Source: Nocardia sp. BMG111209
GTDB lineage: Bacteria; Actinomycetota; Actinomycetes; Mycobacteriales; Mycobacteriaceae
Length of the DNA stretch: 64,000 nt
Reading direction: 5' to 3'
Assembly (NCBI RefSeq): GCF_000381925.1
Contig: NZ_KB907307.1
Span: 124,001 to 188,000 of the forward strand
This document shows, piece by piece, positions 35,136-49,284 of this stretch; position 1 is the stretch's first letter, and each line of letters begins with the position of its first letter. The notes beneath the pieces are model-generated. The model did not search any database. It was not told where the DNA came from and saw nothing but the letters and a program-made list of their open reading frames with translations. The position numbers and the translations under genes are program-made.

Positions 35136-35720
35136 ATGGCGAGGCGTGGTCCCTACAGCAAGGGTGTCGAGAAGCGGGCGGAGATCCTCGACACCGCGCT
35201 GGCGATCGTCGCGCGGCACGGCTACGGGCAGGCGACGGTGAAGCAGATCGCCGACGCGGTCGGGCTCAGCCAGAACGGCCTGCTGCACTATTTCGGATCC
35301 AAGGACGCGCTGTTCACCGAGATCCTGCGCCGGCGCGACGAGATCGACCTGGCGACCTACGGCTCGCCGCCTGCCGACCTCGGCGCGCGGCTGTCGGAAC
35401 TGGTCGCGCACAACGCCGCGGTGCCCGGCTTCGTCGAACTGCACGCCCGCCTCACCCACGAGGCCACCGAGACCGGTCACCTGTCCCACGACTACTTCCG
35501 CGACCGGTACGAGACGATCCGCGCGATCGGCCGCGAGGTCCTCGGGCAGTTGCGCGAGCGCGGCGAGATCGCACCCGGACTCGACCCGGATCGGTTGTCC
35601 CCGTTGCTGTTCGCGGTGATCGACGGATTGCAGACCCAATGGCTGTACGACCGGGACGTCGATATGCCCGCGCTCGTGGGCTATTTCGTCGAACTGCTCG
35701 GCGCCCGGCCACCGGCGTGA
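35136..35720 (+). CDS. TetR-family regulator of the GH3 gene
   Basis: The protein is 194 residues from ATG 35136. The HTH reads ILDTALAIVARHGYGQATVK, then QIADAVGLSQNGLLHYFGSK. The N-terminus MARRGPYSKGVEKRAEI is the form seen in TetR proteins that sit next to beta-glucosidases in actinobacteria. The C-terminal domain ends in LLFAVIDGLQTQWLYDRDVD, a TetR_C_6-like pattern. It is divergent from the GH3 gene, with about 140 bases between starts. Confidence 0.9.
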   Translation: MARRGPYSKGVEKRAEILDTALAIVARHGYGQATVKQIADAVGLSQNGLLHYFGSKDALFTEILRRRDEIDLATYGSPPADLGARLSELVAHNAAVPGFVELHARLTHEATETGHLSHDYFRDRYETIRAIGREVLGQLRERGEIAPGLDPDRLSPLLFAVIDGLQTQWLYDRDVDMPALVGYFVELLGARPPA

Positions 35721-35736: not shown

Positions 35737-36225
35737 TCAGCGGCGATCGAGGATGCGCCGCACGACCTGTTCGCGCGAGCCGGCGCCCTGCGGATCGGTG
35801 GCGTAGCCGGTACCGGCGTCGAAAAGGGCTGCTGCGTAGATCGTTTCGAGCTGCTCCAGCGTCGCGGTATCGGGCTGCGGACCCAGCGCCGCCCGGATGC
35901 GATGCCGGATCTCGCTCGCGGTGCGGGCCCGCAGGTGCAGCACGTCGAGGGCATCGGATTCCAGGCGACCGCGATTCGCGCGAGCCTGCGCCGAAGACAG
36001 CTGCCGCCACAGCAATTCGGAGATCAGCTGCACATCGGTGGCGAACCAGGTCTGCGCCGATTCGAGATCGACACCCGCCTCCCCGGCGATCGCCGCGACC
36101 GTGAGACTCCCGAAGCCGGTGCGCACGATGACCGTCCGGGCCGACTCCAGGAGTACCTCGAACATCGCGGCCCGGTCCACCGGCGCCGCACCCGGCCGGA
36201 CTGTGGTGGACGGTAGATCGGACAT
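35737..36225 (-). CDS. Small TetR-like regulator
   Basis: The protein is 162 residues from ATG 36225. The N-terminal HTH is recognisable (VLLESARTVIVRTGFGSLTV, then AAIAGEAGVDLESAQTWFAT), although the recognition helix and the usual YxHF are altered to AQTWFAT. It ends with LEQLETIYAAALFDAGTGY, similar to the TetR at 43016 (LSMLELLYSGALLQAGMN), so the two are relatives. The start codon lies inside GGACATGTGTCC, a motif related to the operator found upstream of the P450 operons. Its targets are probably in the catabolic block to the right. Confidence 0.75.
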   Translation of the reverse strand: MSDLPSTTVRPGAAPVDRAAMFEVLLESARTVIVRTGFGSLTVAAIAGEAGVDLESAQTWFATDVQLISELLWRQLSSAQARANRGRLESDALDVLHLRARTASEIRHRIRAALGPQPDTATLEQLETIYAAALFDAGTGYATDPQGAGSREQVVRRILDRR

Positions 36226-36236
36226 GTGTCCAAATG
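36220..36236. promoter_or_regulatory. Regulon motif copy at the start of the small TetR-like gene
   Basis: GGACATGTGTCCAAATG matches the first twelve bases of the 17-base motif found upstream of the CYP123-like operon (GGACATSTGTCTGGACR). The inverted core is GGACA-N2-TGTCC. It includes the ATG of the gene, so a bound protein would sit on the translation start. Confidence 0.5.
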
Positions 36237-37031
36237 CTAGTCCGGGCGACTGGGTGGAGCAAGGCGGAATCCACTGACCGGTTTGGTGGCCTCGACGAGG
36301 GTGCGGGTGGAGTGGGCGACGAACGGTCCGTCCCGCCGGATCTGCTCGTGGAGGCGGCGCAGGCGGTCGCGGTGCAGGTCGACGGTGAAGCCGGGGACCA
36401 GCCAGATGACCTTGCGCAGCAGATAGACCACCGCGCCGACGTCGTCGAACTCCATGCGCAGGCGCTCGGTGCGCTGGTCGACGATGTCCAGGCCGGCCGC
36501 GCGCGCGGCCGCGGCCTCCGCCTCGGGGTGACGCCCGCGGCGGGCGCGGGGCTGGGGGCCGAGGAAGTATTCGACCAGCTCGAATACGCTGGCCGGTCCG
36601 ACGTGTTGCGCGAAATAGGTGCCACCGGGTTGCAGGACGCGGGCGATCTCGTCCCACCAGACGGTCGCCGGATGCCGGCAGGTGACCAGGTCGAAGGCCG
36701 CGTCCGCGAACGGCAGCGGCGGCCGGTCGGGGGTGGCGACCACGACCGCGCCGCGCGGATGCAGCAGTGCGGTGGCCCTGGCGATATTCGGCGGCCACGA
36801 CTCGGTGGCGACCATGGTGGGCGGGAAGGACTTCGACCCGGCGAGGACCTCCCCGCCGCCGGTCTGGATATCCAGTGCGGCGGTGGCGGTTTCGAGCCGG
36901 GCGCTCATCGACCGCTGGTAGCCCCAGGACGGGCGGGCCTCGGTGGCTCGGCCGTCGAGCCAGGCGAAGTCCCAGCCGTCCACGGATGCCGATGCGGCCT
37001 CGGCCACCAATTCCTCGAAAACGGGTTTCAT
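36237..37031 (-). CDS. Class I SAM-dependent methyltransferase
   Basis: The protein is 264 residues from ATG 37031. Motif I is ALDIQTGGGEVL, followed by the later strands (AVVVATPDRPPLPFADAAFD and LVTCRHPATVWWDEIARVLQ, then GGTYFAQHVG), a standard methyltransferase-11-type core. The C-terminal part (VVYLLRKVIWLVPGF) may cap the substrate pocket. It is downstream of the MarR gene on the same strand (16-base gap) and probably co-transcribed. The methyl acceptor is unknown; detoxification is a possibility given the MarR and ABC exporter neighbours. Confidence 0.87.
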   Translation of the reverse strand: MKPVFEELVAEAASASVDGWDFAWLDGRATEARPSWGYQRSMSARLETATAALDIQTGGGEVLAGSKSFPPTMVATESWPPNIARATALLHPRGAVVVATPDRPPLPFADAAFDLVTCRHPATVWWDEIARVLQPGGTYFAQHVGPASVFELVEYFLGPQPRARRGRHPEAEAAAARAAGLDIVDQRTERLRMEFDDVGAVVYLLRKVIWLVPGFTVDLHRDRLRRLHEQIRRDGPFVAHSTRTLVEATKPVSGFRLAPPSRPD

Positions 37032-37047
37032 AGGCCGAGTGTGCGGG

Positions 37048-37518
37048 TCAGCGGGCCTGTTCACCATCGAGTTTCGGGGCCGGCGATTCCGGCTCCGCCG
37101 GGTCGCGCAGCTGCGCCAGCAGTGCGCCGAGGGTTGCGCGCTGATCGGGGGACAGCGGCGCGAACACCTCGGCGGCCGCATGTCTGCGCGCCTCGGTGAT
37201 GCGGGCGCGCACGGCCCGGCCCGCGTCGGTGGGCTCGAGCAGCGTGGACCGGCGGTTCGCCGGATCGGCGGTGCGGCGGACCAGACCGGCCGCCTCCAGC
37301 GCATCGATCACCGTGGTGACCGTGCGCGGCACCACATCGAGCTGGGTGGCCAGATCCACCATGCGCATCGGCCCGTCCGCGCGCACGATCGAGCGCAGCG
37401 CCCTGGCCTGCGCGGGGGTCAGCCCGAGCGGTGCCAGGTGTGCTGCCTGGTTGCGGCGCATCCGCTTCGAGACCTCGAAGAACAGGTCGGGCAGTTCGTT
37501 CTCCGCCGGGGTCGTCAC
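37048..37518 (-). CDS. MarR-family regulator
   Basis: The protein is 156 residues from GTG 37518. The winged HTH is typical: LTPAQARALRSIVRADGPMR, MVDLATQLDVVPRTVTTVID and the wing RTADPANRRSTLLEPTDAG. It is divergent from an ABC exporter. The 80-base gap has the perfect palindrome ATTGTT-N6-AACAAT, so it most likely represses the exporter and its own operon with the methyltransferase. Confidence 0.92.
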   Translation of the reverse strand: MTTPAENELPDLFFEVSKRMRRNQAAHLAPLGLTPAQARALRSIVRADGPMRMVDLATQLDVVPRTVTTVIDALEAAGLVRRTADPANRRSTLLEPTDAGRAVRARITEARRHAAAEVFAPLSPDQRATLGALLAQLRDPAEPESPAPKLDGEQAR

Positions 37519-37534
37519 GAGCTGAGCCTACCTC

Positions 37535-37552
37535 ATTGTTGCGGGGAACAAT
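37535..37552. promoter_or_regulatory. MarR operator palindrome ATTGTT-N6-AACAAT
   Basis: ATTGTT (37535-37540) and AACAAT (37547-37552) are perfect inverted repeats separated by GCGGGG. The site lies 17 bases upstream of the MarR start codon and 50 bases before the ABC gene's start. A+T-rich half-sites with this spacing are normal for MarR dimers. Confidence 0.75.
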
Positions 37553-37601
37553 TGTGAGTCATACTCAGTTACACCGGGCATCGATCGTCGAAGGAGTGCC
37601 C

Positions 37602-39410
37602 TTGCCGCGTCCACAACTTCGCCGGATACTCCGGCTCTTCGCTCCCTACCGGGGACAACTCACCGTCATGGCCCTGCTGGTGGCACTGTCCGCCGTCGTC
37701 TCGCTGGCCTCGCCGTTCCTGCTGCGCGCCGTGCTGGACGTGGCGCTGCCGCAGGGGCGTACCGGCCTGCTGACCGTGCTCGCCGCGGGCATGATCGCGG
37801 TCTCGGTCGCGACCAGCGTGTTCGGTGTGTCGCAGACCTACATCTCCACCGCGGTCGGGCAGCGGGTCATGCACGACCTGCGCACCGCCGTCTACGCCCG
37901 GTTGCAGCAGATGCCGCTGGCGTTCTTCACCACCACCCGCACCGGTGAGGTGCAGTCCCGCATCGCCAACGACATCGGCGGGATGCAGTCCACGGTCACC
38001 TCCACGGCGACCTCGCTGGTCTCCAACTTCACCGCGGTGACCGCGAGTGTCATCGCGATGATCGCGCTGGACTGGCGGCTCACGCTGGTCTCGCTGGTCA
38101 TGCTGCCGTTCTTCGTGTGGGTCAGCCGCCGCGTCGGCAACGAACGCCGCCGCATCACCGCGCGCCGGCAGAAGCAGCTCGCGTCCATGTCCGCCATCGT
38201 GGAGGAGTCGCTGTCGGTCAGCGGAATCCTGCTGGGCCGCACCATGGGTCGCGCGCCCGCACTGACCCGCAACTTCGCGGGCGAGTCGCGGGAGCTGGCG
38301 GATCTCGAACTGCAGGCGAGTATGGCGGGCCGGTGGCGGCAGTCCACCATCCAGATGGTCATGTCCGCGATGCCCGCGGTGATCTACTGGGCGGCCGGAT
38401 TGACTGTCTCGCACGGACATTCGCTGGTCTCGGTGGGTACCCTGGTCGCCTTCACCACCCTGCAGAGCGGGTTGCTGCGGCCGCTGGTCATGCTGTTGCA
38501 GACCGGCGTCGACATCCAGAGCTCACTGGCGCTGTTCGCGCGCATCTTCGAATACCTCGATCTCACCCCGGACATCACCGAGTCCGCGACGCCCGCGAAG
38601 CTGCCGCACATCACCGGCGCGGTGGACTTCGACCATGTCGGATTCGGTTACGACGGCGCCCCGGCCCCGGCGCTGGACGATGTCGACCTGCACGTGCCCG
38701 CGGGCTCCAGCCTGGCCGTGGTGGGTGAAACCGGTTCGGGCAAAACGACATTGAGTTACCTGGTGCCGCGGCTCTACGACGTGACGGCGGGCCGGGTGCG
38801 CATCGACGGCACGGATGTGCGGGAGCTGTCGTTCGCCGATCTGGCCCGTGCCGTCGGCGTGGTGTCGCAGGAGACCTACCTGTTCCACGCCACCGTCGCG
38901 GAGAACCTGCGCTTCGCCAAGCCGGACGCCACCGACGCGGAGTTGCACCGGGCGGCGCGCGCGGCCCAGATCCACGACCACATCGCGAGCCTGCCCGACG
39001 GCTACGACACCGTCGTGGGGGAGCGCGGCTACCGGTTCTCCGGCGGCGAGAAGCAGCGGCTGGCCCTGGCCCGCACGATCCTGCGGGATCCGCCGATCCT
39101 GGTGCTGGACGAGGCGACCAGTGCGCTGGACACCCGCACCGAGCGCGCGGTGCAGGATGCGGTGGACGCGCTCGCGGCGGGCCGCACCACCATCACCATC
39201 GCGCACCGGCTGTCCACCGTCCGCGACGCGGACCAGATCGTGGTGCTCGACCACGGCCGGATCGCCGAGCGCGGCACACACGACGAACTCGTCGCTCGCG
39301 GTGGCAGATACGCCGCGCTCCTGGCCCGCGCGGGCGAACTCGCCCCGGCAACGTTCGGTGATGTTCCCGAAAGTGATCACCCGGCACACGATTTCGCGGA
39401 CAGCGCCTAG
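37602..39410 (+). CDS. ABC exporter, fused membrane and ATPase domains
   Basis: The protein is 602 residues from TTG 37602, which has GAAGGAG five bases upstream; GTG 37554 would add 16 residues. Six membrane helices occupy about residues 20-290 (for example MALLVALSAVVSLASPFLLR). The ATPase domain has Walker A GETGSGKTTL, the Q-loop VVSQETYLF, a signature FSGGEKQRLALAR (Phe and Glu replace the usual Leu and Gln) and Walker B ILVLDEATSALD, then the switch AHRLS. It works as a homodimer or with a missing partner. MarR control suggests export of a toxic compound. Confidence 0.93.
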   Translation: MPRPQLRRILRLFAPYRGQLTVMALLVALSAVVSLASPFLLRAVLDVALPQGRTGLLTVLAAGMIAVSVATSVFGVSQTYISTAVGQRVMHDLRTAVYARLQQMPLAFFTTTRTGEVQSRIANDIGGMQSTVTSTATSLVSNFTAVTASVIAMIALDWRLTLVSLVMLPFFVWVSRRVGNERRRITARRQKQLASMSAIVEESLSVSGILLGRTMGRAPALTRNFAGESRELADLELQASMAGRWRQSTIQMVMSAMPAVIYWAAGLTVSHGHSLVSVGTLVAFTTLQSGLLRPLVMLLQTGVDIQSSLALFARIFEYLDLTPDITESATPAKLPHITGAVDFDHVGFGYDGAPAPALDDVDLHVPAGSSLAVVGETGSGKTTLSYLVPRLYDVTAGRVRIDGTDVRELSFADLARAVGVVSQETYLFHATVAENLRFAKPDATDAELHRAARAAQIHDHIASLPDGYDTVVGERGYRFSGGEKQRLALARTILRDPPILVLDEATSALDTRTERAVQDAVDALAAGRTTITIAHRLSTVRDADQIVVLDHGRIAERGTHDELVARGGRYAALLARAGELAPATFGDVPESDHPAHDFADSA

Positions 39411-40492
39411 TGCTTCCGGGGCGCCCGGACCACGCCGGGCGCGGTGACCAGGGGTAGATCGAGGGTGGTGCGGATGCCGGGGGCGGCGGCGACCACCGCG
39501 GGGATCGCGTTCACGATCCGGCCCGCGGCCGCGACGATCGCGGCGTGGTTGTGATCGCCCTTGCGGCTGGTCGGGCAGATGTCCACGGAATACGAAGGCT
39601 CCCCGGTGATCTCGATGCGGTAGGAGCCGCCGGGCTGGGCGGGCTGCGGCCAGTCCGGGCACAGATCCGCGCGCAGGCGGGTGACGTGCTCGATCACGAT
39701 CGCCGGATGCCCGCCGACCATGCCGCGCAATTCGAAACGCAGCGCCACCACGCCACCCTCGGGCACGTGCCCGACGGCGATGTCGAACGGTTCGGTGGCC
39801 GGAATCCGTTCGTAGTGTTCGGTGATCGTGTCCACGGTGACGCCGAGCCCGGCGGCCAGCTGCCGGATCGCCGGTCCCCACGCGATACTCAGCACGCCGG
39901 GCTGCAACAGCATCGGGATCTCGTCGATCGGCCTGCCGAAACCCATGACGTCGAACATGACCGTCGCGCCGTCGTAGGTGGCGTAGTCGGCGATCTCCAT
40001 GCAGCGGACCTGTTCCACGGTCTGGCAGGTGCCGGTGAGGGCGAAGGGCAGCAGGTCGTTGGCGAAGCCGGGGTCGACGCCGGTGATGAACAGGCTCGAA
40101 TTCCCTTGCCGCGCGGCATCTTCGATCGGCGTGATGAATTTCGGCGGCAGCACCTGCCAGGGATACTGCAACAGGCCCGGCGACGAGCCGACCACGTCGA
40201 CGCCGGCGGCCAGCAGCCGGCGCACATCCTCGACCGCCTCCGGCAGCCGGGTGTCACCCATCGCGCAGTACACGACGCACTCCGGTTCCGTCGCCAGCAG
40301 CGCGTCGAGATCGCCGACCGCGGCGATGCCGGTGGTCACGTCGAGTCCCGCGAGTTCACCGGCGTCGCGGCCGACCTTGGCGGGGGTGGAGACGCAGACG
40401 CCGGTCAGCTCGTAGTGCGGGCTCTCGACGAGGCCGGTCAATGCCAGCCGGCCGACGTTCCCGGTGCCGACGTGGGCGACACGGATAGGCAT
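39407..40492 (-). CDS. NAD(P)-binding dihydrodipicolinate-reductase-like oxidoreductase
   Basis: The protein is 361 residues from ATG 40492. The Rossmann motif is VAHVGTGNVGRLAL, and VYCAMGDTRLPEAVEDVRRL and GVDPGFANDLLPFAL follow as in the DapB-like family that includes 2,4-diaminopentanoate dehydrogenase. In mycobacteria similar 350-residue proteins are numerous and occur beside steroid or lipid catabolic genes. The substrate is unknown. The 3' end overlaps the convergent ABC gene by four bases. It is divergent from the 20-beta-HSD-like SDR, with a regulon motif between them. Confidence 0.85.
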   Translation of the reverse strand: MPIRVAHVGTGNVGRLALTGLVESPHYELTGVCVSTPAKVGRDAGELAGLDVTTGIAAVGDLDALLATEPECVVYCAMGDTRLPEAVEDVRRLLAAGVDVVGSSPGLLQYPWQVLPPKFITPIEDAARQGNSSLFITGVDPGFANDLLPFALTGTCQTVEQVRCMEIADYATYDGATVMFDVMGFGRPIDEIPMLLQPGVLSIAWGPAIRQLAAGLGVTVDTITEHYERIPATEPFDIAVGHVPEGGVVALRFELRGMVGGHPAIVIEHVTRLRADLCPDWPQPAQPGGSYRIEITGEPSYSVDICPTSRKGDHNHAAIVAAAGRIVNAIPAVVAAAPGIRTTLDLPLVTAPGVVRAPRKH

Positions 40493-40545
40493 GGATTCTC
40501 CTCGGTGCGTAGCGGTTCGGGCCGATCACAGGGTCCGGTCATATT

Positions 40546-40566
40546 TCTGGACAGTAGTCTGGATTG
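40546..40566. promoter_or_regulatory. Regulon motif copy upstream of the 20-beta-HSD-like SDR
   Basis: GGACAGTAGTCTGGATT at 40549-40565 agrees with the motif GGACATSTGTCTGGACR at 12 of 17 positions, including GGACA-N3-GTCTGGA. It lies in the 104-base gap between two divergent genes, 32 bases before the SDR start. Confidence 0.6.
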
Positions 40567-40596
40567 GCTTCCAGTCGGTATGTTAGCGTGACCGCC

Positions 40597-41331
40597 ATGG
40601 GACGCGTAGACGGCAAAGTGGCACTCATCAGTGGCGGGGCGCGCGGCATGGGCGCGGCGCACGCGGAACTGCTCGTGGCCGAGGGCGCTCGGGTCGTCCT
40701 CGGTGACATCCTGGACGACGAGGGTGCCGCGGTTGCCGAGAAGCTCGGCGCCGCAGCGCGTTACGTCCATCTCGACGTCACCGAGCCGGAGCAGTGGGAG
40801 GCGGCGGTGGCCGAGGCGGTCACCTCCTTCGGCAAGCTCGACGTGCTCGTGAACAATGCCGGCATCATCAACGGCGGCCCCATCGAGAAGTTCGACCTCG
40901 GCAAGTGGCGGCGGATCCTCGACGTGAATCTCACCGGCACCTTTCTCGGGATCCGGTCGGTCGTGGAGCCGATGACCGTGGCCGGTGGCGGGTCGATCGT
41001 CAACGTGTCCTCGATCGAGGGCCTGCGCGGCGCCCCGTGGGCGCACGGGTACGTCGCGTCGAAATGGGGCGTGCGCGGGCTGGCCAAATCGGCGGCACTC
41101 GAATTGGCGCCCCGCAAGATCCGGATCAACTCGCTGCATCCGGGCCTGATCCGCACCCCGATGACCGAGCAGATCCCCGACGATCTGGTGACCATCCCGC
41201 TGGGCCGTCCCGCCCAGCCCGAAGAGGTCGCGACGTTCGTACTCTTCCTGGCCAGCGACGAATCCGCGTACGCGACCGGCGCGGAGTTCGTCGTCGACGG
41301 CGGTCTCGTGGTGGGAGTTCCGCACAAGTAG
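40597..41331 (+). CDS. SDR resembling mycobacterial FabG3 (20-beta-hydroxysteroid dehydrogenase)
   Basis: The protein is 244 residues from ATG 40597. NAD-binding ISGGARGMGAAHAELLVAEG, the structural NNAG and the active site SSIEGLRG with GYVASKWG are all intact. The order GARVVLGDILDDEG, ARYVHLDVTEPEQW, ILDVNLTGTFLGIRSVVEPM and SLHPGLIRTPMT closely follows Rv2002 (FabG3), as I remember it. Rv2002 reduces the C20 ketone of steroids with NADH. A steroid or related alcohol substrate is therefore inferred. Its promoter region carries the regulon motif shared with the P450 operons. Confidence 0.85.
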   Translation: MGRVDGKVALISGGARGMGAAHAELLVAEGARVVLGDILDDEGAAVAEKLGAAARYVHLDVTEPEQWEAAVAEAVTSFGKLDVLVNNAGIINGGPIEKFDLGKWRRILDVNLTGTFLGIRSVVEPMTVAGGGSIVNVSSIEGLRGAPWAHGYVASKWGVRGLAKSAALELAPRKIRINSLHPGLIRTPMTEQIPDDLVTIPLGRPAQPEEVATFVLFLASDESAYATGAEFVVDGGLVVGVPHK

Positions 41332-41373
41332 CGGCGAGAGTGCCTGCCCGACAGCAGGTTTGCTCGACAACAG

Positions 41374-41400
41374 CGGCCCGGGTGAACTCCACCCGGGCCG
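41374..41400. terminator. GC-rich hairpin between convergent SDR and P450 genes
   Basis: CGGCCCGGGTG (41374-41384) and CACCCGGGCCG (41390-41400) make a perfect 11-base stem around AACTC. It lies between two convergent genes and is likely a bidirectional terminator. Confidence 0.7.
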
Positions 41401-41412
41401 CCGCGGTTCCGT

Positions 41413-42657
41413 TCACCCGTACCGCACCGGCCAGTGCTTGATGCCGTTGATCCAGCCCGAGCGCAGGCGTTCCGGCGCCGCGACCTCCGACAGATCCGGT
41501 ACGACCTCGGCGAGCGCGTTGAACATCAGGTCGATCTCCAGCCGGGCCAGATTCGCTCCGACACAGTAGTGCGCCCCGGTGCCGCCGAAGGCCAGGTGCG
41601 GATTCGGATCGCGCAGGATGTCGAACGAGAAGGGATTCTCGAAGGTGTCCTCGTCGAAATTGGCCGAGCTGTAGAACAATCCGACCCGCTGCCCGGCCCG
41701 GATGGTCTGCCCGCCGAGTTCGGTGTCCGCGGTGGCGGTGCGCTGGAACGCCGTCACCGGGGTGGCCCAGCGGACGATCTCGTCGGTGGCGGTGCGCGGG
41801 CGCTCCCGCCGGTACAGCTCCCACTGCCCGGGATTGTCGACGAACGCCTTCATCCCGTGGGTGATGGCGTTGCGGGTGGTCTCGTTGCCGGCCACCGCGA
41901 GCAGGATGACGAAGAAGCCGAACTCCTCGGAAGCCAGTGCCTCACCGTCGATATCGGCGTGCACGAGCTGACTCACGATGTCGCCGAGCGGATTCGCGCG
42001 CCGCGCCTCGGCCATGGCCCAGGCGTAGCCGAGGATCTCCATCGAGGCGAGCGTCGACGCGTCCGTGGTGACGGCGTCCCCGTACTCCGGATCGTCGTAG
42101 TTGAGCATCTGATTCGACCACTCGAACAGCTTGTGCCGATCGTCCTGCGGAACGCCGAGCAGTTCCGCGATCGCCTGCAGCGGCAGCTCACACGCCACCT
42201 GCTCGACGAAATCGCCGCTGCCCTGCTCGCGTGCGGCCGCCACGATGGCGGCCGCGCGCTCGGCCAGCGCGGCCCGCAACCCCTCCACGGCCCGCGGGCT
42301 GAACCCCTTCGAGATGATGCGCCGGATCTTGGTGTGCTTGGGCGGATCCATGTTCACCAGCAGCGCGCCGGTGAGTTCGATCTGCTCGGGGGTCACCTCA
42401 CCGGGCAACCGGATGATCGACCCCTTCTGCTGCGAGGAGAACAGCTCCGAATTCCGCGAGATCTCCTTGATGTCCTCGTGTTTGGAGACGACCCAGTACC
42501 CCCCGTCCCGGAAACCGCCGGACTGCTCGTCGGCCTGCGGATTCCACCACACCGGCGCGGTCCGCCGCAGTTCGGCGAATTCCCTGACCGGATTGCGTGA
42601 TTCCCAGAGACCCGGATCGGTGAAGTCGAAGCCGGCGGGGATGGACGGAGCTGACAC
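41413..42657 (-). CDS. Cytochrome P450 resembling CYP125 (steroid C26/27-hydroxylase)
   Basis: The protein is 414 residues from GTG 42657, behind CAGGAGG. Typical P450 motifs are AVAGNETTRN (I-helix), EIVRWATPV (ExxR) and FGGTGAHYCVGANLARLE (heme loop). Several segments match CYP125A1 (Rv3545c) almost word for word as I recall it: PPGFDFTDP-like start, FVEQVACELPLQAIAELLGV, FGFFVILLAVAGNETTRN and the end APERLRSGWINGIKHWPV. CYP125 oxidises the terminal methyl of the cholesterol side chain to alcohol, aldehyde and acid. A similar branched isoprenoid side chain is the likely substrate. Two regulon palindromes lie upstream. Confidence 0.88.
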   Translation of the reverse strand: MSAPSIPAGFDFTDPGLWESRNPVREFAELRRTAPVWWNPQADEQSGGFRDGGYWVVSKHEDIKEISRNSELFSSQQKGSIIRLPGEVTPEQIELTGALLVNMDPPKHTKIRRIISKGFSPRAVEGLRAALAERAAAIVAAAREQGSGDFVEQVACELPLQAIAELLGVPQDDRHKLFEWSNQMLNYDDPEYGDAVTTDASTLASMEILGYAWAMAEARRANPLGDIVSQLVHADIDGEALASEEFGFFVILLAVAGNETTRNAITHGMKAFVDNPGQWELYRRERPRTATDEIVRWATPVTAFQRTATADTELGGQTIRAGQRVGLFYSSANFDEDTFENPFSFDILRDPNPHLAFGGTGAHYCVGANLARLEIDLMFNALAEVVPDLSEVAAPERLRSGWINGIKHWPVRYG

Positions 42658-42714
42658 TGCTTTCCTCCTGACGGGACCGACGTCCCTACGGGCCGGAAAT
42701 CCTGCCCGGAAATC

Positions 42715-42747
42715 TGTCCGGACAAATGATGGACATCTGTCTGGACA
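42715..42747. promoter_or_regulatory. Two regulon palindromes upstream of the CYP125-like gene
   Basis: TGTCCGGACA (42715-42724, a perfect palindrome) and TGTCTGGACA (42738-42747) are 23 bases apart. The second is part of the longer GGACATCTGTCTGGACA (42731-42747). They lie 58-90 bases upstream of the P450 start. The rest of this 358-base gap (to the TetR stop at 43016) shows no gene. Confidence 0.75.
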
Positions 42748-43015
42748 GTACTATGAGGCGCGGCGCGCGACAAGACTCGCGACCGGGCCGAATGCCGCGG
42801 CATGCGGCGATCCGCACGCCGGTGCGGTGGTGCCGCAGTTGCGGGCCCTTCGGTGAAATTGGATGCAGCGGAACAGGTTCCGGACCGCTACGGGCATGCG
42901 GATACGCCCGCGGGCACCGGCGCGGTCACGGCGATTCGATCGGAGCCGCCGGTTCGGGTGTGGCGACGCGACGGCCCCGGCCGCGTGGGGACGGCCGGGC
43001 CGGCGCGGATTCGGG

Positions 43016-43603
43016 TCAGGAGTGGCGGTCGGCGAGGAGGCGGCGGGCCGAGATCTCGAGCAGGTCGGCCACCTGTTCGTAGGAGAGCAGGTTCATGCCG
43101 GCCTGGAGCAGGGCGCCGGAGTAGAGCAGTTCCAGCATCGACAGGCTCTCGGAATCGGTGGAACCGAGGGCGGCGGCGAGGCGGCCGCGGATCTCACTGC
43201 CGATCCGGACCCGCAGGTGGCGCACGTCCGGGTCGTCGCCGAGCAGCGCGCTGCTGACCGCGCTGGCCAGGGCCGGTTCGTCGGCCACCAGCAGCGAGAC
43301 CTGGCGCAGGACCGCGACGACCCGGTCCGCCGGATCCGCGTCCTCGGTCTCGAGGGGCGGCGCGGCGATCAGGCGGCGCCAGTACACCTCCGAGATGAGG
43401 TGTTCCTTGGACGAGAAATACGTGTAGGCGGTGGCGGTGCCGACACCCGCGGCCGCGGCGACGAGTCGAATCGTGGTGCCGGAGTAGCCTTCCCGGGACA
43501 GCACGTCGACCGCGGCCGCGGTGAGGCGGTCGACGGTGTCGGCCTGTTTCTCGGTGAGGCGCCGTCGAGTCGCCTCGATGCCGGTGGATGCGAGTTCGGA
43601 CAT
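43016..43603 (-). CDS. TetR-family regulator, last gene of the P450 operon
   Basis: The protein is 195 residues from ATG 43603. The HTH reads LTAAAVDVLSREGYSGTTIR, then LVAAAAGVGTATAYTYFSSK. It is the last of six minus-strand genes and 47 bases after the CoA-ligase gene, so it is probably co-transcribed with them, with a possible extra start of its own. GGACATGTGTCT, part of the regulon motif, spans its ATG. It is the best candidate for the protein that binds the TGTCYGGACA sites of this block; the regulator at 35737 is the alternative. Confidence 0.88.
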   Translation of the reverse strand: MSELASTGIEATRRRLTEKQADTVDRLTAAAVDVLSREGYSGTTIRLVAAAAGVGTATAYTYFSSKEHLISEVYWRRLIAAPPLETEDADPADRVVAVLRQVSLLVADEPALASAVSSALLGDDPDVRHLRVRIGSEIRGRLAAALGSTDSESLSMLELLYSGALLQAGMNLLSYEQVADLLEISARRLLADRHS

Positions 43604-43614
43604 GTGTCTGAATC
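43598..43614. promoter_or_regulatory. Regulon motif copy over the TetR start codon
   Basis: GGACATGTGTCTGAATC agrees with the first 14 bases of GGACATSTGTCTGGACR. It lies in the 47-base gap between CoA ligase and TetR and covers the ATG, as does the copy at 36220. Autoregulation is possible. Because both genes begin with Met-Ser-(Asp/Glu), part of the match could instead reflect shared ancestry. Confidence 0.5.
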
Positions 43615-43650
43615 CTACTGTAGGGTCCGACCAGGGTCGTTGCGGCACGG

Positions 43651-45270
43651 TCAGCGGTCGCTGCCCACCCGATGATCGGGGGTGCGGGCGCCGGCGTAGT
43701 CCTTCGCCCAGCGGTAGTCGGGTTTGCCGCTGGGGGAGCGGACCACCGTATCGGCGATCCAGAGGGTGCGGGGCACCTTGTAGCCGGCCAGGTGGCTGCG
43801 GACGTGCGCGATCAGGTCCTCGAAGTCCGGGCCGTCGGCGCCGGTGGTGGCCACCACCGCGGCGACCTGCTGGCCCCAGCGCTCGTGCGCGATACCGACG
43901 ACCACCGCGTCGAACACCGAATCATGGGCCTTGAGAACGCTTTCCACCTCCTCCACGAACACCTTCTCGCCGCCGGTGTTGATCACCATGTTGCCGCGGC
44001 CGAGCAGCGTGATGTAGCCGCCGTCCTCGGCGCGGGCCCGATCGTCGGTGACCACCATGCGCACGCCGTCGACCGTCTTGAACAGCTTCTCGGTCTTCGC
44101 GGTGTCCTTGTAGTAACCCAGTGGCACCGAACCGGTCTTGGCCAGCCAGCCCTCCTCGCCGACCGCGACGGGCCGGCCCTCGTCGTCGACCACCACGGCC
44201 CCGCGGCCGGTCTGCACGCGCGGGCCGCGGCCGGGATCGTCGTCCTTGGTGGCGAAACCCATTCCGCCGAAACCCGTTTCGGAGGAGCCGATGGAGTCGG
44301 AGATCAGGGCCGACGGGAAGCGTTCCAGCAGTGCGTTCTTCGCCTGCTGGGACAGCAGCGCGGCGCCGGAGGCGATCACCACCAGCGAACCGGTGTCGCA
44401 GTCGGCCTCGGCGTGCGCGTCCAGCAGCGGTCGCGCCATCGCGTCACCGGTGATCACCAGCACCATGGGCCGCTCCCGGATCACGGTGCGCCACACCGCC
44501 GCCGCGTCGAACCTCGACTCGAACACGACCGCGTTGCCGGTCCACAGCGCGGTGAAGGTGGGCATCATCGCCGACGGGTGGATCAGCGGCGGCAGGACCA
44601 GCCAGGTGGCGGGATCGGACTGCGCGCCGACGCGGGACTGCTGGTACTCGTCGGCGACGGGTTCACCGGTGTAGAAGTCGATACCGCCGCCGAGGACCCG
44701 CCACATGTCCTCCTGCCGCCACATCACGCCCTTCGGCAGGCCGGTGGTGCCGCCGGTGTACATCATGTACACGTCGTCGGCGCTGCGCTCGATCTTGCGC
44801 CGCGCCGGGGAGCCCGCGGCCAGGGCCGCTTCGTATTCCGTTGCGGTGCTGCGCAACCCGTCGCTGCCCAGATCGTCGTCGACGACGATCGCGTGCCGCA
44901 CCCGGGGCACCCGCGCGAGTGCCGGTGCGGCGGCCGGTGCGTAGCTGCGGTGGTACACCAGCACGTCGAGGTCGGCGTTGTCGTAGAGGTAGACCAGTTC
45001 CTCGACGCCGTAGCGGTAGTTGACGTTGATCGGCACCGCGCGCAGCTTGAAGCAGGCGATCAGGGTCTCCATGGTCTCGATGCTGTTGTGCATCTGGAAA
45101 CCGATATGGGCGCCGGGGCCCACACCGGCCGCGGCGAGATGATCGGCCAGCCGGTTGGCTCGCGCGTCGAGTTCGGCGAAGGTGATGCGGCGGTCGCCGT
45201 GGATCAGCGCGGTACGCCGGCCCATCGCGTCGACGGAGTGCTCGAACAGGTCAGCGAAGTTACGCGCCAT
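43651..45270 (-). CDS. FadD19-like acyl-CoA ligase
   Basis: The protein is 539 residues from ATG 45270. The adenylation domain has MMYTGGTTGLPKGVMW (P-loop), ISDSIGSSETGFGGM (A5 region) and GRGNMVINTGGEKVFVEEVE, and the C-terminal catalytic lysine is in RSPSGKPDYRWAK. VMWRQEDMWRVLGGGIDFYTGE is close to the segment of the mycobacterial steroid-side-chain ligases FadD17/FadD19, as I recall them. It should make a CoA thioester from a branched or steroid-linked carboxylic acid, the product of the P450s and aldehyde dehydrogenase nearby. Fifth gene of the operon. Confidence 0.9.
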   Translation of the reverse strand: MARNFADLFEHSVDAMGRRTALIHGDRRITFAELDARANRLADHLAAAGVGPGAHIGFQMHNSIETMETLIACFKLRAVPINVNYRYGVEELVYLYDNADLDVLVYHRSYAPAAAPALARVPRVRHAIVVDDDLGSDGLRSTATEYEAALAAGSPARRKIERSADDVYMMYTGGTTGLPKGVMWRQEDMWRVLGGGIDFYTGEPVADEYQQSRVGAQSDPATWLVLPPLIHPSAMMPTFTALWTGNAVVFESRFDAAAVWRTVIRERPMVLVITGDAMARPLLDAHAEADCDTGSLVVIASGAALLSQQAKNALLERFPSALISDSIGSSETGFGGMGFATKDDDPGRGPRVQTGRGAVVVDDEGRPVAVGEEGWLAKTGSVPLGYYKDTAKTEKLFKTVDGVRMVVTDDRARAEDGGYITLLGRGNMVINTGGEKVFVEEVESVLKAHDSVFDAVVVGIAHERWGQQVAAVVATTGADGPDFEDLIAHVRSHLAGYKVPRTLWIADTVVRSPSGKPDYRWAKDYAGARTPDHRVGSDR

Positions 45271-45293
45271 GGTGTTTCGTCTCTCATCTGTGC

Positions 45294-46547
45294 TCAGACC
45301 ACGGTCAACGGGAGCGGGATGCCGCGATCGGCGAACCGGAAATTCGCCCCGGAGCTGATCCTGGTGATCGCGACCTCGCCGGATTCGGCGAACGGCCGCT
45401 CGGCCGAACGGAATTCGATCAGGAGCTCGTCCGCGGTATCGCCGACCACGTGGGCCGCGTAGTGCGGATTCACCCCGCGCGCCATCGCCTCCAGCGGCGC
45501 CAGATGTTCGGCGTCGACCACCGCGGGCCAGACCCCGTCCGCGAGCGCCGCACTGCGGCGGGGCAGCCGCAGCCGCACCCCGCCGTCCGTGAGCTCGATC
45601 TCGATCCCGGTGTACCGCAACGGGTTCCACGCCGGATGCAGGCCCAGCACCCGCGCCAGTGCCGCATCGTCGTCGCCGAGACCCAGTGCCAGGCGCAGCC
45701 GTTCGGAGGTGATCCCCGCGATACCGGTGAACTGCTTGCGGAATATCTCGGCCGCCGCGTCGGTGCGGGCGGCGACCGCGATGCGGAAACCCATCGCCAG
45801 CAGATGGTGTTGCAGGCACACCTCGTCGGCGATGCGGATCAGCGCCGACCGGGAGAAGTCCGCGAACCGCAGATCGCTGAGCAGCGGGCCGGCGTAGTCG
45901 GCGTGGCCGGGATCGCCGGAATCGATGGGGTCCAACGACATTCCGGCCGCCCGGGAGCCGGCGAGGACATCCGAATTGGGCGGGATCGGCGGCGGCACGT
46001 GCGCGGGATCGATCACGACGGTCCACGCGCAGACCGGATGCCGGTCCGCGGGCACCCGCGGCGGCCGATGGATCGGCCGCACCTGCGCGTACGGATTGGT
46101 CGCCAGCGCGGTGGCATCGAAGGTGGGGTCCTCGATGTCGTGGCACATGGAACGCACATAGGACTCGCCCATCGGCTCGACATCGGCGAGCGCACCGCAG
46201 TGGTCCAGCCAGAATTCCCCGTGATCGTGGTCGTCGACCCGGAACCGGAAGTCCATGAACTGCGGCGGGGCGCCGATATCCAGTTGCAGCCCTTTGAAGA
46301 TCGTCTCGACGCTGTCCCCGGCGAAGTTCAGCGCGCGCTGCATCCGCCGGGTGTAGACGGGACTGGCCACCTGCCACTCCTCGATCGCGACGGCGGTCAT
46401 ACCCTCGCGGCCGAAGGCGCCGATGCAGTGCGCCATACCGGAACGGTCGATCAGCTGCCCGCTCAGCAGCAGTTCGGGCACCAGTACGGCCAGTTCGGCC
46501 TGCGTCAGATCCGCGAAACCGCTGCGGCGCGAATCGGTCCCGCTCAC
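45294..46547 (-). CDS. Unidentified conserved-looking protein in the P450 operon
   Basis: The protein is 417 residues. Its GTG start (46547) overlaps the stop of the NTF2-like gene by four bases (GTGA); GTG 46550 is an alternative. I do not recognise the family. Visible features are a Leu-rich start (LAVLVPELLLSGQLID), an acidic-aromatic segment, FRFRVDDHDHGEFWLDHCGA, then MCHDIEDPTFDATA and PIHRPPRVPADRHP, with several His and Cys that could bind a metal. There is no signal peptide or membrane helix. Its place between an NTF2-like protein and a CoA ligase suggests a step of side-chain metabolism. Confidence 0.75.
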   Translation of the reverse strand: MSGTDSRRSGFADLTQAELAVLVPELLLSGQLIDRSGMAHCIGAFGREGMTAVAIEEWQVASPVYTRRMQRALNFAGDSVETIFKGLQLDIGAPPQFMDFRFRVDDHDHGEFWLDHCGALADVEPMGESYVRSMCHDIEDPTFDATALATNPYAQVRPIHRPPRVPADRHPVCAWTVVIDPAHVPPPIPPNSDVLAGSRAAGMSLDPIDSGDPGHADYAGPLLSDLRFADFSRSALIRIADEVCLQHHLLAMGFRIAVAARTDAAAEIFRKQFTGIAGITSERLRLALGLGDDDAALARVLGLHPAWNPLRYTGIEIELTDGGVRLRLPRRSAALADGVWPAVVDAEHLAPLEAMARGVNPHYAAHVVGDTADELLIEFRSAERPFAESGEVAITRISSGANFRFADRGIPLPLTVV

Positions 46548-47095
46548 CACAACGGCACCGGCGCTTCGCCGATGGGGTACCAGCCCGGCAGTTTCTCGCC
46601 CGAGGTGGCGCGGGTGATGCGCTGCTGCATCCCTGCCGAGAGCGCGTTACCGGTGATCATGTCGAGGAACAGCGCCGACACGTTGCCGAAGTCGAAGAAG
46701 TCGCGCTGCCACGACCACCGGAAGTCGCCGCCGTAGCGGAACCAGCTGCCGCCGATACCCTCCGGCGAGTAATGGCGCCCGTCGGGCCGGGTGCGGTCGC
46801 TGACCTGTTTCCACAGGCCGATCAGATTGCCGCTGCGGTCGTCGATGACCCAGTCCTGATACGGGTAGGTCCAGCCCTCGAGCCCGTCCATCTCCAATCC
46901 GATGGCGATATCGCGGATCTCGTCCCGGCCGACGGCCATGAATTCCTGTTTCGGGCCGTAGTTCCAGCCGTAGGTGGCGTCCTCGGTGTAGAACTCGGCC
47001 AGCGGCCGCCAGTCGCCGGCGGCCTCGCAGTCGCGGTTGGCCTGCAGCCAGCGCCGTACCATTTCGTCGAGTTCGGCGCGATCGAAATCGGCCAT
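46544..47095 (-). CDS. SnoaL/NTF2-like fold protein
   Basis: The protein is 183 residues from ATG 47095. The NTF2-like core is visible (MVRRWLQANRDCEAAGDWRP, then LAEFYTEDATYGWNYGP, and VGRDEIRDI). The second half (WIDDRSGN-like turn, GGSWFRYGGDFRWSWQRDFF) forms the curved sheet and is rich in Trp and Phe, suited to a hydrophobic ligand pocket. Such folds act as hydratases, isomerases or binding proteins in steroid pathways. It is 50 bases after the SDR and overlaps the next gene, so it is within the operon. Confidence 0.8.
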   Translation of the reverse strand: MADFDRAELDEMVRRWLQANRDCEAAGDWRPLAEFYTEDATYGWNYGPKQEFMAVGRDEIRDIAIGLEMDGLEGWTYPYQDWVIDDRSGNLIGLWKQVSDRTRPDGRHYSPEGIGGSWFRYGGDFRWSWQRDFFDFGNVSALFLDMITGNALSAGMQQRITRATSGEKLPGWYPIGEAPVPLW

Positions 47096-47145
47096 GGCAG
47101 TGATCCTTTCGGTGAACGGTCGAATTCGTGCCGGCGGCACGGAAA

Positions 47146-47928
47146 TCAGGCTCCGGTCGGTACCCGGGCCTCGGGCTGTACCTCGGTGAGCTGGATGTGC
47201 GCCCCGCGCGGCGCGGAGACCACGGCGACGATCGCGGCGGCGAGGTGGTTCGCGCGCAACATCTCCGGATGCCGCGCGAAACCCCAGCGCACCCAGTCCT
47301 CGAGCACCGGCCCGATGACCTCCGCGGGGACGGTCATCCCCATACCGGTGAGCGTGGGGCCCGGCCGGACCAGGGAGACCCGGACGCCGGTGCCCTCCAA
47401 CTCCATTCCCATCTGCCGCGCCATGATCTCCACGGCGGTTTTCGCGGCCGGGTAGGCCCCCGCGCGCGGCCGCGGATGGTTCGCGGTGTCGGAGCTGATC
47501 ATCACGAAATCGCCGCGCCGCCGGGCGATCATGTCCGGGACGATGCGATGCACCAGGCGGTGCACCCCGATCAGGTGCACGTCGACCTGAGCGCGGAAGT
47601 CCTCGGGTGTCATCTCGTGCACCAGGCCGAAACTCATGTCGCCGGCGCCGGACACCACGATCTCGGCCGGGCCGAGCGCGGTCTCGGCGGCGGTGACGAA
47701 CGCGTCGACCGACTCGGTGTCGGCCACATCGAGCCGATGCGCGAACGCCTCGCCACCGTTGCCGATGATCTTGGCGGCCAGCGTCTCCAGCAGTTCGACG
47801 CGGCGAGCGCCGAGCGCCACCGGATGCCCCAGTTCGGCGAGCGCCTCGGCGGTCGCGGCGCCGATACCGGAGGAGGCGCCGGCGATCAGCACCGGCCGGC
47901 GCTCGGGGTGGGGTGCGAAGCGGGGCAT
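47146..47928 (-). CDS. SDR resembling Rv0765c
   Basis: The protein is 260 residues. Its ATG (47928) shares a base with the TGA of the upstream P450, so it is translationally coupled. NAD(P) motif: LIAGASSGIGAATA. Active site: MISSDTANHPRPRAG with AYPAAKTAVE. The start MPRFAPHPERRPVLIAGASS and the end LTEVQPEARVPTG parallel Rv0765c, which likewise follows CYP123 in M. tuberculosis, by my recollection. The NNAG motif is replaced by VSGAGD, as in that relative. It should oxidise an alcohol produced by the P450 or reduce a ketone. Confidence 0.88.
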   Translation of the reverse strand: MPRFAPHPERRPVLIAGASSGIGAATAEALAELGHPVALGARRVELLETLAAKIIGNGGEAFAHRLDVADTESVDAFVTAAETALGPAEIVVSGAGDMSFGLVHEMTPEDFRAQVDVHLIGVHRLVHRIVPDMIARRRGDFVMISSDTANHPRPRAGAYPAAKTAVEIMARQMGMELEGTGVRVSLVRPGPTLTGMGMTVPAEVIGPVLEDWVRWGFARHPEMLRANHLAAAIVAVVSAPRGAHIQLTEVQPEARVPTGA

Positions 47929-49133
47929 CAGCGGATCTCCACGGTGACAGGGAGTTTGGCGAAGCCGCGGACACTGGTCGAGTGCACGCGTTCGATACCG
48001 GACTCGGCGAGGTCGTACGCCCGTACGTGTGTGGCGAATTCGCGCAGGGCGATGGTGGCCTCCAGCCGGGCCAGATGGGCGCCGAGGCAGAAGTGCACGC
48101 CCGCACCGAAACTGGCGAGGTTGCCCTTGTCCGGGCGGTCGAGTCGGTAGGTGTCGCCGTCCTCGAACACCTCCGGATCGCGGTTGGCCGAACCGATCAG
48201 CAGCAGCACCTTCGCCCCGGCCGGGATCGTGCGGTCGTACATCTCGATATCCGTTGCGGCACTGCGTGCCACGATCTGGCTCGAGGTGTCGTAGCGCAGC
48301 GTCTCCTCGACCCAGTCCGGCACCAGCGCCCGGTCCGCGGCGACCTTGCGGTACTCGCCGGGATTGCGGCCGGCCCAATACAGCGCGTTGCCCAGCAGTT
48401 TGGTGGTGGTCTCGTTCCCGGCGACCACCATCAGGAACATGAAGCCGATGATCTCCTCGTCGGTGAGCCGGTCACCGTCGATCTCGGCGTCCAGCAGCGC
48501 CGAGGTGAGATCCGCACCGGGCGCCTTGCGCCGCTCGCCGACCATATCGCTGTAGTAGCCGATCAGCGACAGCGCCGATTCGATGGCCGCCATCGGCACG
48601 TCGAGGACGCCCTCCTCGCGGTGCACCACGAGATCGGCGAGCCGGCGCACCTCGGCGCGATCGGGCTCGGGCACGCCGAGCAGTTCGGAGATGACATCCA
48701 TGGGCAGCTTGCCCGCGAAATCCTCGATCCAGTCGAAACTTCCGCGCGCCAGCGCCGGTTCCAGATGCTCGCGCGTCAATTCCAGGATGCGGCTGTCCAT
48801 TTCGGCCACCCGGCGCGGTGTGAAGCCCTTGTACACCAGCCGCCGCATGCGCACGTGCCGCGGATCGTCCATGGCGAGAAAGGACATGGTCTTGTGCGCG
48901 TGCGGGCCCCAGGCGGCGGGATCCAGCGAGACCCCGTTGGCGCTGGAGAGCCGGACGTGGTCCCGGAACGCGGTGATGACGTCCGAATGCCGGGAGACGG
49001 CCCAGAAATTCAGCTCCGGGTTGTGGTACAGCGGTGCCTCGGTGCGCAGGCGCCGGTAGAGCGGATACGGATCGTCGTGGAACCGATAGTCGTAGGGGTC
49101 GAACGTGAACGGCTCCAGTGAGGCCTGGGTCAT
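47928..49133 (-). CDS. Cytochrome P450 resembling CYP123 (Rv0766c)
   Basis: The protein is 401 residues from ATG 49133, behind CGGAGGGGG. The I-helix is VVAGNETTTKLL, ExxR is in EETLRYDTSSQ, and the heme loop is ASFGAGVHFCLGAHLARLE. The stretch from PYDYRFHDDPYPLYRRLR to VHSTSVRGFAKLPV follows CYP123 of M. tuberculosis closely, as I recall it. CYP123's natural substrate is not established. First gene of a six-gene operon; the regulon motif lies 30 bases upstream. It needs ferredoxin and reductase partners encoded elsewhere. Confidence 0.9.
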   Translation of the reverse strand: MTQASLEPFTFDPYDYRFHDDPYPLYRRLRTEAPLYHNPELNFWAVSRHSDVITAFRDHVRLSSANGVSLDPAAWGPHAHKTMSFLAMDDPRHVRMRRLVYKGFTPRRVAEMDSRILELTREHLEPALARGSFDWIEDFAGKLPMDVISELLGVPEPDRAEVRRLADLVVHREEGVLDVPMAAIESALSLIGYYSDMVGERRKAPGADLTSALLDAEIDGDRLTDEEIIGFMFLMVVAGNETTTKLLGNALYWAGRNPGEYRKVAADRALVPDWVEETLRYDTSSQIVARSAATDIEMYDRTIPAGAKVLLLIGSANRDPEVFEDGDTYRLDRPDKGNLASFGAGVHFCLGAHLARLEATIALREFATHVRAYDLAESGIERVHSTSVRGFAKLPVTVEIR

Positions 49134-49162
49134 GACGTCCCCCTCCGGAAAGACACACAGCT

Positions 49163-49179
49163 GGACATGTGTCTGGACG
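49163..49179. promoter_or_regulatory. Regulon motif upstream of the CYP123-like operon
   Basis: GGACATGTGTCTGGACG, 30 bases before the P450 start, differs at only two of 17 bases from the copy upstream of the CYP125-like gene (42731-42747). It contains overlapping dyads GGACA-N2-TGTCT and TGTC-N2-GACG. Confidence 0.75.
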
Positions 49180-49256
49180 GTATCACCGACGCTTGCCCGC
49201 CACAACGGTCCGGCATCCTTGCGTTCGATCAATGATTCGAACTATATTCCGAACAC

Positions 49257-49270
49257 CTGTCCAGACATGC
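49257..49270. promoter_or_regulatory. Regulon motif upstream of the aldehyde dehydrogenase
   Basis: CTGTCCAGACATGC holds TGTCCAGACA, the reverse complement of TGTCTGGACA. It is 15 bases before the ALDH start codon and about 85 bases from the copy serving the divergent P450 operon, so one regulator could control both directions. Confidence 0.65.
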
Positions 49271-49284
49271 ATCGGAGCCTGCAC

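Follow-up and report, generated by a model that had tools for sequence, protein, structure and literature searches.

The closest described relative of the system considered here is the “motif X” regulon of Rv0767c/G155_05115, which has been predicted in mycobacteria (PMC6593523; see also PMC4482099, PMC10312376); according to the first of these reports, growth of Mycobacterium sp. VKM Ac-1817D with phytosterol raised expression of 12 of 14 motif X operons by a factor above 3. Here we analyze a 64,000-nt stretch of the Nocardia sp. BMG111209 genome (C1:124001-188000 in an assembly of 9.14 Mb in 5 contigs; below, the window), where copies of a palindromic DNA element precede cytochrome P450, aldehyde dehydrogenase (ALDH), short-chain dehydrogenase (SDR) and TetR-family genes. 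Very probably, these repeats are operators of one Rv0767c-type subfamily of TetR-family transcription factors, which would repress the P450, ALDH and SDR genes of the window.

By layout and content we regard the Nocardia system as the likely counterpart of the motif X regulon as described in these sources. In both, a palindromic site stands close to the start codon of the TetR gene, an Rv0768-family ALDH gene is nearby, sites precede genes for P450s, aldehyde and short-chain dehydrogenases, a steroid isomerase and other TetRs, and the ChIP-seq sites of Rv0767c are enriched in GAC and GTC, the letters of the operator half-site (PMC6593523, PMC4482099, PMC10312376). The Nocardia system differs in having a direct CYP125 site, two paralogous clusters and a short TetR. 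A preliminary sequence-only reading of the locus could not say whether its motif had been described. A published palindrome, the motif X attributed to the Rv0767c orthologue (PMC6593523), is presumably the same element; literature searches with Rv0767c, motif X and operator spellings found no printed operator letters for this regulon. The predicted mycobacterial relative is already known from that report; new are the exact operator, the duplication of the regulon, and a short TetR that shares this operator but is devoid of pocket helices and of the DNA-reading arginine.

Three further systems invite comparison. EilR, a TetR-family dimer, binds a consensus with the GGACACGTGTCC core, as seen by gel shift and in a crystal structure (PMC6127294; PDB 5VL9); the core of its palindrome, GGACA-CG-TGTCC, is the same as that of the Nocardia operator, and the helix-turn-helix (HTH) domains match over approximately 55 residues. 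EilR requires Arg32 and His47, and replacement of Arg32 with Ala abolished operator binding (PMC6127294). By the reported ungapped match ranges, Arg32 lines up with Arg46 of the window TetR, an arginine found in all 28 of 28 alignment rows. Unlike the Nocardia regulator, EilR, as that report presents it, controls an efflux pump in Enterobacter via a 24-bp operator and responds to cationic dyes, and the match is confined to the HTH.

MftR, the mycofactocin TetR, also stands beside dehydrogenase genes, and the cholesterol repressors KstR and KstR2 are TetR-family regulators of steroid genes. Targets of KstR and KstR2 in mycobacteria include cyp125. Neither name suits the window TetR: it scores 35.1 bits with the MftR model TIGR03968 (cut-off 224.9) and 38.8 bits with the KstR model (cut-off 280), and no exact KstR consensus occurs in the window.

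The operator and its copies in the window

Fifty-seven distinct sites at the TetR starts of relatives yield the consensus TCYRGACA-YR-TGTCYRR, whose symmetric form, the 18-bp palindrome TCYRGACA-N2-TGTCYRGA, is taken as the operator. A TA pair precedes these sites at a fixed distance on the 5' side, each of its positions agreeing in 56 of the 57. Two matrices were used for scanning, one covering all genera (the first matrix) and the other built from 13 distinct sites outside Nocardia (the non-Nocardia matrix). The first matrix gives eight top places in the window with scores from 30.5 to 6.0 (the ninth, 4.4), and the non-Nocardia matrix ranks the same eight first (25.4 to 11.4; the ninth, 6.9). 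All eight coincide with places listed in the sequence-only reading. They are given here in order of the first matrix, with both scores:

43595-43612, operator covering the TetR start codon, the best score in the window; 30.5 and 25.4
36217-36234, operator covering the short-TetR start codon; 27.8 and 25.4
49160-49177, operator 5' of P450_B, also within the divergent ALDH promoter region; 23.5 and 24.2
49248-49265, operator immediately 5' of ALDH; 13.5 and 18.2
40534-40551, operator in the region separating the divergently oriented reductase and SDR_A genes; 13.2 and 14.9
42728-42745, operator 5' of CYP125; 12.4 and 14.3
42705-42722, second, weak operator 5' of CYP125; 6.2 and 11.4
40546-40563, weak operator overlapping the 40534 site in the reductase/SDR_A region; 6.0 and 12.2

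Of the window sites, those of TetR, short TetR, CYP125 (42728), P450_B and ALDH and one on the reductase strand have the TA pair before them; the 42705 site and the SDR_A strand lack it. A scan of 40400-49400 with the sigma-70 consensus found no promoter.

The claim of one operator common to these promoters is supported by the matrix from other genera, as well as by the conservation described below. The copies quoted earlier are all present, namely TGTCCGGACA at 42715-42724, GGACATCTGTCTGGACA at 42731-42747, GGACATGTGTCTGGACG at 49163-49179, sites near 40549, 36220 and 43598, and reversed TGTCTGGACA, the last at 49258-49267, one base from the 49257 given for it. Their excess over chance also holds, with 20 window matches to the 10-mer at one mismatch against 7.9 in 100 shuffles (sd 3.6, largest 18). 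The core TGTCYGGACA proposed for them is, however, mis-set, being the place where half-sites abut, and the 10-mer is spread genome-wide, an outcome that the sequence-only reading had itself named as speaking against the regulon. Of its 22 distinct genome places (strands merged), the window holds three, a paralogous contig-3 cluster one, and the rest of the genome 18; across all 18 outlying places, the operator-matrix score within 12 bases reaches 1.9 at most; we therefore reject the 10-mer as the operator, since 18 of 22 places do not fit the matrix. The ranking of sites is reversed as well: those near 43598 and 36220, called weaker, score best and both overlap a TetR start codon, and the site with which the “perfect palindrome” at 42715 overlaps is among the two weakest. 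The site in the 40.5-kb region is real, but it is double, separates two divergent genes, and faces also the reductase gene, not listed before. With the long form of the earlier motif and up to three mismatches, at least 66 and at least 60 matches are found on the two strands (control, 25 and 13); among the matches listed, three of the four best lie in the window and the other on contig 3.

Full operator sites are real and occur far beyond chance. With column-permuted versions of the non-Nocardia matrix, 2 of 500 trials placed the top six within a span of 13.1 kb, and the score sum reached at most 99.6, compared with 122.4 observed. The first matrix at threshold 12 gives 6 window matches, against a mean of 0.18 and a maximum of 3 in 300 permuted trials; at threshold 8, one permuted matrix gave 10 matches versus 6 observed.

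Genome-wide, TCYRGACA-N2-TGTCYRGA with at most one mismatch occurs at five places in 9.14 Mb, three in the window and two in the contig-3 paralogous cluster. At most two mismatches yield 28 places (control, 7), seven of them in the window, five at C3:730-762 kb and 16 elsewhere; the 36217 site has three mismatches to the consensus and so falls outside this set. The shorter pattern YRGACA-N2-TGTCYR is matched exactly at ten places (control, 3). Four of these are in the window and two in the contig-3 cluster; of the others, one precedes the P450 gene of contig 2, one is intergenic and two are intragenic. As genome scans were done by consensus pattern, high-scoring places with other mismatches may escape them. 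The 13-kb regulon proposed earlier is well supported, and it is predicted to extend further, to the contig-3 cluster and the contig-2 P450 gene. Three candidates elsewhere are not accepted: C1:3111154 scores 22.3, but we attribute it to chance because it falls within the coding region of an FAA hydrolase, and C1:1668123 and C1:1828885, inside other genes, are chance-like. An operator-like intergenic site (9.1) is also observed at G000:C1:4564724-4564741, just behind another TetR gene.

The genes of the window cluster, with the labels used below, are as follows:

35737-36225, minus strand, short TetR, a paralogue of 162 aa (TetR_N, 19.3 bits, below the cut-off of 24)
39407-40492, minus strand, reductase, 2,4-diaminopentanoate-dehydrogenase-like (PF19328, 60.8 bits, cut-off 23.3)
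40564-41331, plus strand, SDR_A dehydrogenase (PF13561, 215 bits; ATG also at 40597)
41413-42657, minus strand, CYP125-type P450 (CYP125 structures, 562-586 bits)
43016-43603, minus strand, TetR, a TetR-family repressor of 195 aa and the proposed binder (PF00440, 53.2 bits, cut-off 24; AlphaFold2 pLDDT 88)
43651-45270, minus strand, FadD-like acyl-CoA synthetase (NF005863, 712.6 bits, cut-off 543)
45294-46550, minus strand, protein of 418 residues inside the putative P450_B operon, without a match in Pfam and NCBIfam searches
46544-47095, minus strand, SnoaL-like protein (SnoaL_2, 23.2 bits, below the cut-off of 27)
47146-47937, minus strand, putative start, SDR_B dehydrogenase (NF005854, 404.5 bits, cut-off 260)
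47928-49133, minus strand, P450_B, first gene of the putative operon (NCBIfam subfamily and PDB matches; CYP123 position)
49285-50754, plus strand, ALDH of the Rv0768 family (TIGR04284, 870 bits, cut-off 775; in-frame ATG also at 49267)
50837-51709, plus strand, SDR_C dehydrogenase behind ALDH (adh_short, 136.7 bits)

Co-occurrence of the operator with the TetR subfamily

The TetR subfamily is present in 133 of 201 genomes of the family (E 1e-10 or better), and twice in the genome studied. We compared 16 TetR-positive genomes, picked by hand from the 132 others, with the 20 listed out of 68 TetR-negative ones. All 16 TetR-positive genomes have one ALDH above the TIGR04284 cut-off; in the 20 TetR-negative genomes no ALDH is found above this cut-off or at E 1e-150. 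With our genome included, all 17 Rv0768-type ALDH genes, from 11 genera, have an upstream operator scoring at least 13.0. TetR is the divergent neighbor of ALDH, with the P450_B orthologue behind TetR, in 10 of these 17 genomes; the window differs in layout, TetR being situated approximately 5.7 kb from ALDH, at the end of the putative P450_B operon and not divergently adjacent. The operator with at most one mismatch is matched 52 times in the 16 TetR-positive genomes, 2-6 times in each (control pattern, 14), versus 4 times in the 20 TetR-negative ones (control, 8). Genera g9, g19 and g23 contain both TetR-positive and TetR-negative genomes.

Conservation in related loci

The named set of relatives consists of the best 80 matches of the TetR scan, representing 78 distinct loci from Nocardia, Rhodococcus, Mycobacterium, Mycolicibacter, Mycolicibacterium, Speluncibacter, Antrihabitans and others; the closest named TetR among these 80 is that of Nocardia aurantia RB56, 97% identical. 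In 73 of the 78 named relatives GACA-N2-TGTC is located in the interval from -75 to +20 relative to the start of the TetR match, which, along with the co-occurrence of sites and TetR, bears out the earlier choice of the TetR at 43016 as the best candidate binder. Its pN/pS of 0.07-0.18 indicates strong conservation, and members of its Nocardia clade retain both the HTH and the operator at the start codon.

Operators are also retained upstream of orthologous genes of the named loci, when searched with the non-Nocardia matrix (score at least 11) from -250 to +40 of the gene start. Heads of putative transcription units have the operator in 27 of 27 cases for ALDH, 16 of 16 for TetR, 10 of 10 for SDR_A, 9 of 9 for the reductase, 3 of 3 for the short TetR, 19 of 22 for P450_B and 2 of 3 for SDR_C. 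Among orthologues internal to the putative operon, the respective counts are 0 of 12 (FadD), 0 of 22 (the unmatched protein), 0 of 29 (SnoaL) and 1 of 20 (SDR_B). A stricter test (first matrix, score at least 12, -60 to 350, orthologues classed by tblastn) retained 27 of 27 ALDH, 84 of 86 TetR, 20 of 27 P450_B and 3 of 3 short-TetR genes, and found a site for 5 of the 41 P450s at least 40% identical to CYP125; 62 of its 228 operator matches have no recognized gene behind them. The G+C-based gene caller sometimes chooses the wrong frame. CYP125 orthologues (at least 80% identity) have a direct operator in 6 of 18 cases, and in all the remaining 12 the operator is placed 1.42-1.46 kb upstream, before the leading gene, which is a P450 in the three scanned.

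In Mycolicibacterium komossense (L192 6090) a strong operator (28.3) is observed 3.9 kb from TetR, where a gene for a family 4 glycosyltransferase begins; sites similarly distant from TetR occur in other mycobacterial loci.

The paralogous cluster on contig 3

The contig-3 cluster (G000:C3:732000-770500; L081, L082) is a paralogue of the window cluster, with identity of 73% for the CYP125-like P450, 69% for SDR_B, 67% for FadD and 62-66% for TetR. It contains a second TetR, CYP125-like P450, FadD, SDR, GMC oxidoreductase and methyltransferase genes. Three strong operators are also present there, of which one covers the start codon of the contig-3 TetR (26.7) and another stands in a divergent SDR promoter. 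The ALDH and P450_B genes are found only in the window cluster, as though the two copies had split the set. The two Nocardia TetRs group together, apart from those of other genera, with 88/90 support in a midpoint-rooted tree with a long-branch warning (65 rows; 58 of the 78 named loci and 10 ALDH-adjacent genes were tried, and 7 and 3, respectively, were left out as their excised sequence crossed a stop codon).

Functional content of the cluster

Among solved structures, the P450 at 41413-42657 matches CYP125 with 586 bits, as opposed to 324 for CYP124, 241 for CYP126 and 206 for CYP142, and is assigned to CYP125 by these solved relatives. For P450_B, no CYP123 is found among the five PDB matches at E 1e-60, and its CYP123 label is positional only. 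A published gene table of M. tuberculosis gives the order cyp51, Rv0765c, cyp123, Rv0767c, aldA, Rv0769. The unmatched protein at 45294-46550 is at least 65% identical to its counterparts in the 22 named loci counted.

Model of regulation

Dimers of the window TetR and of its contig-3 paralogue would bind TCYRGACA-N2-TGTCYRGA. The operator lies directly 3' of a TA-containing, -10-like element at the TetR, short-TetR, CYP125, P450_B and ALDH promoters, and at the TetR and short-TetR genes it covers the start codon; therefore, the bound repressor would block RNA polymerase. This would be the ordinary design of a TetR autorepressor, with a dimer on a palindrome blocking initiation, and the direction of control would be negative. 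The repressed set is predicted to include TetR itself, the short TetR, CYP125, the putative operon P450_B-SDR_B-SnoaL-unmatched protein-FadD, ALDH and the divergent reductase/SDR_A pair. Repression would be released by a small molecule derived from the substrate, most likely a product of sterol or branched-lipid side-chain oxidation or its CoA ester. The enzymes would suit terminal hydroxylation, oxidation to the acid and CoA activation.

Several observations weigh against this model. The operators are common to two TetR paralogues, either of which could act. The average size of TetR-positive genomes is greater, and genomes that are related to each other do not count as independent. The threshold of 11 in the orthologue test was chosen after window scores were known, and the worst of 40 permuted matrices gave 13 sites for ALDH, 19 for P450_B and 3 for other heads, the first two counts being high because the upstream regions of ALDH and P450_B are near copies of each other. 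In the stricter test, a site remained for 3 of 10 SDR_A and 3 of 10 reductase genes, and the weak window sites, 42705 and 40546, score below 7 with the first matrix. The second half of TetR operators overlaps the coding sequence, so that conservation may partly reflect codon constraint. For M. tuberculosis, a published prediction places Rv0762c-Rv0771 under the ArsR-like Rv0576 (PMC10470581), and PMC4482099 reports the Rv0767c motif in its less significant class.

Alternative explanations

It is improbable that the contig-3 paralogue alone represses these genes, with the window TetR having acquired a different ligand or role and retaining its operator as a relic. The start-codon operator of the contig-3 TetR is of the same type, and the proteins are 62-66% identical; still, the low pN/pS of the window TetR, and retention of its HTH and operator in its Nocardia clade, speak against this reading.

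Another regulator, such as KstR, KstR2, an ArsR-like protein of the Rv0576 type, or the TetR encoded at 35136-35720, might bind the sites, with the TetR at 43016 merely a target; this is quite improbable. The genes do resemble those of steroid metabolism, a published prediction assigns the operon group of M. tuberculosis to Rv0576 (PMC10470581), and the 35136-35720 protein has a good TetR_N domain. However, no exact consensus of KstR or KstR2 occurs in the window, and allowing for one mismatch yields 14 KstR-like and one KstR2-like matches, none of them at these promoters. Operator matches, moreover, are common only in genomes with the TetR subfamily, and stand at the start of its own gene in 73 of 78 relatives.

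That the likeness is a core-promoter or start-codon feature shared by these genes, with no specific regulator, is very unlikely: the TA pair at 56 of 57 distinct TetR sites and at six window sites would suit it, but the 18-bp palindrome is absent at internal and most other gene starts and rare in TetR-less genomes. Chance repeats, which the scatter of the 10-mer core alone might suggest, can be dismissed, as the full operator is not scattered and already contradicts them.

The short TetR

The short TetR, a repressor-like protein under the shared operator, is 39% identical to TetR and has approximately 30 residues fewer after the HTH; its structure model, of low confidence (pLDDT 60.5), has seven helices and is consistent with the loss of two ligand-pocket helices. 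The position of Arg46 is occupied by Ala in the window protein and by Ala or Gln in all seven short-TetR proteins of the alignment; the more distant L102 keeps Arg. The “35737 TetR”, named earlier as another possible binder, is thus a shortened paralogue missing the DNA-reading arginine and the residues of two pocket helices, and is unlikely to be a normal repressor. It is easily confused with the canonical TetR at 35136-35720 (plus strand; TetR_N, 52.1 bits), which adjoins it.

Full-length relatives of the short TetR are found in 6 of 147 other Nocardia genomes searched, and all seven genes, these six and that of the window, have an operator (scores 23 to 29) at or near the start; a large protein search found five other proteins. 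The pN/pS of the short TetR is 0.31-0.62, versus 0.07-0.18 for TetR, that is, it is constrained, but loosely. Literature searches with truncated-TetR terms found no description of such a protein.

Three readings suggest themselves for the short TetR: it may act as an antagonist, it may regulate without sensing a ligand, or its gene may be in the course of being lost. As an antagonist, a role that we propose tentatively and consider possible rather than probable, it would form heterodimers with the full-length TetR or TetRs that bind DNA poorly, holding the regulon open and creating positive feedback in some Nocardia. The C-terminal helices for dimer pairing appear to be retained, and, made from the same operator, the protein would accumulate once the inducer lifts repression. 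This role is made more likely by the effect of the Arg32 to Ala replacement in EilR.

Implications

The Rv0767c regulator with its P450 and ALDH neighbors is widespread in mycobacteria and their kin, and in the published accounts cited here its operator has so far been a computed motif. The present analysis gives an exact, testable operator before the same genes in 11 genera, in step with TetR; it also singles out one odd short TetR. The operator links to CYP125, the sterol side-chain hydroxylase, in Nocardia, and would aid prediction of regulons for sterol and lipid oxidation, including those of steroid-production strains.

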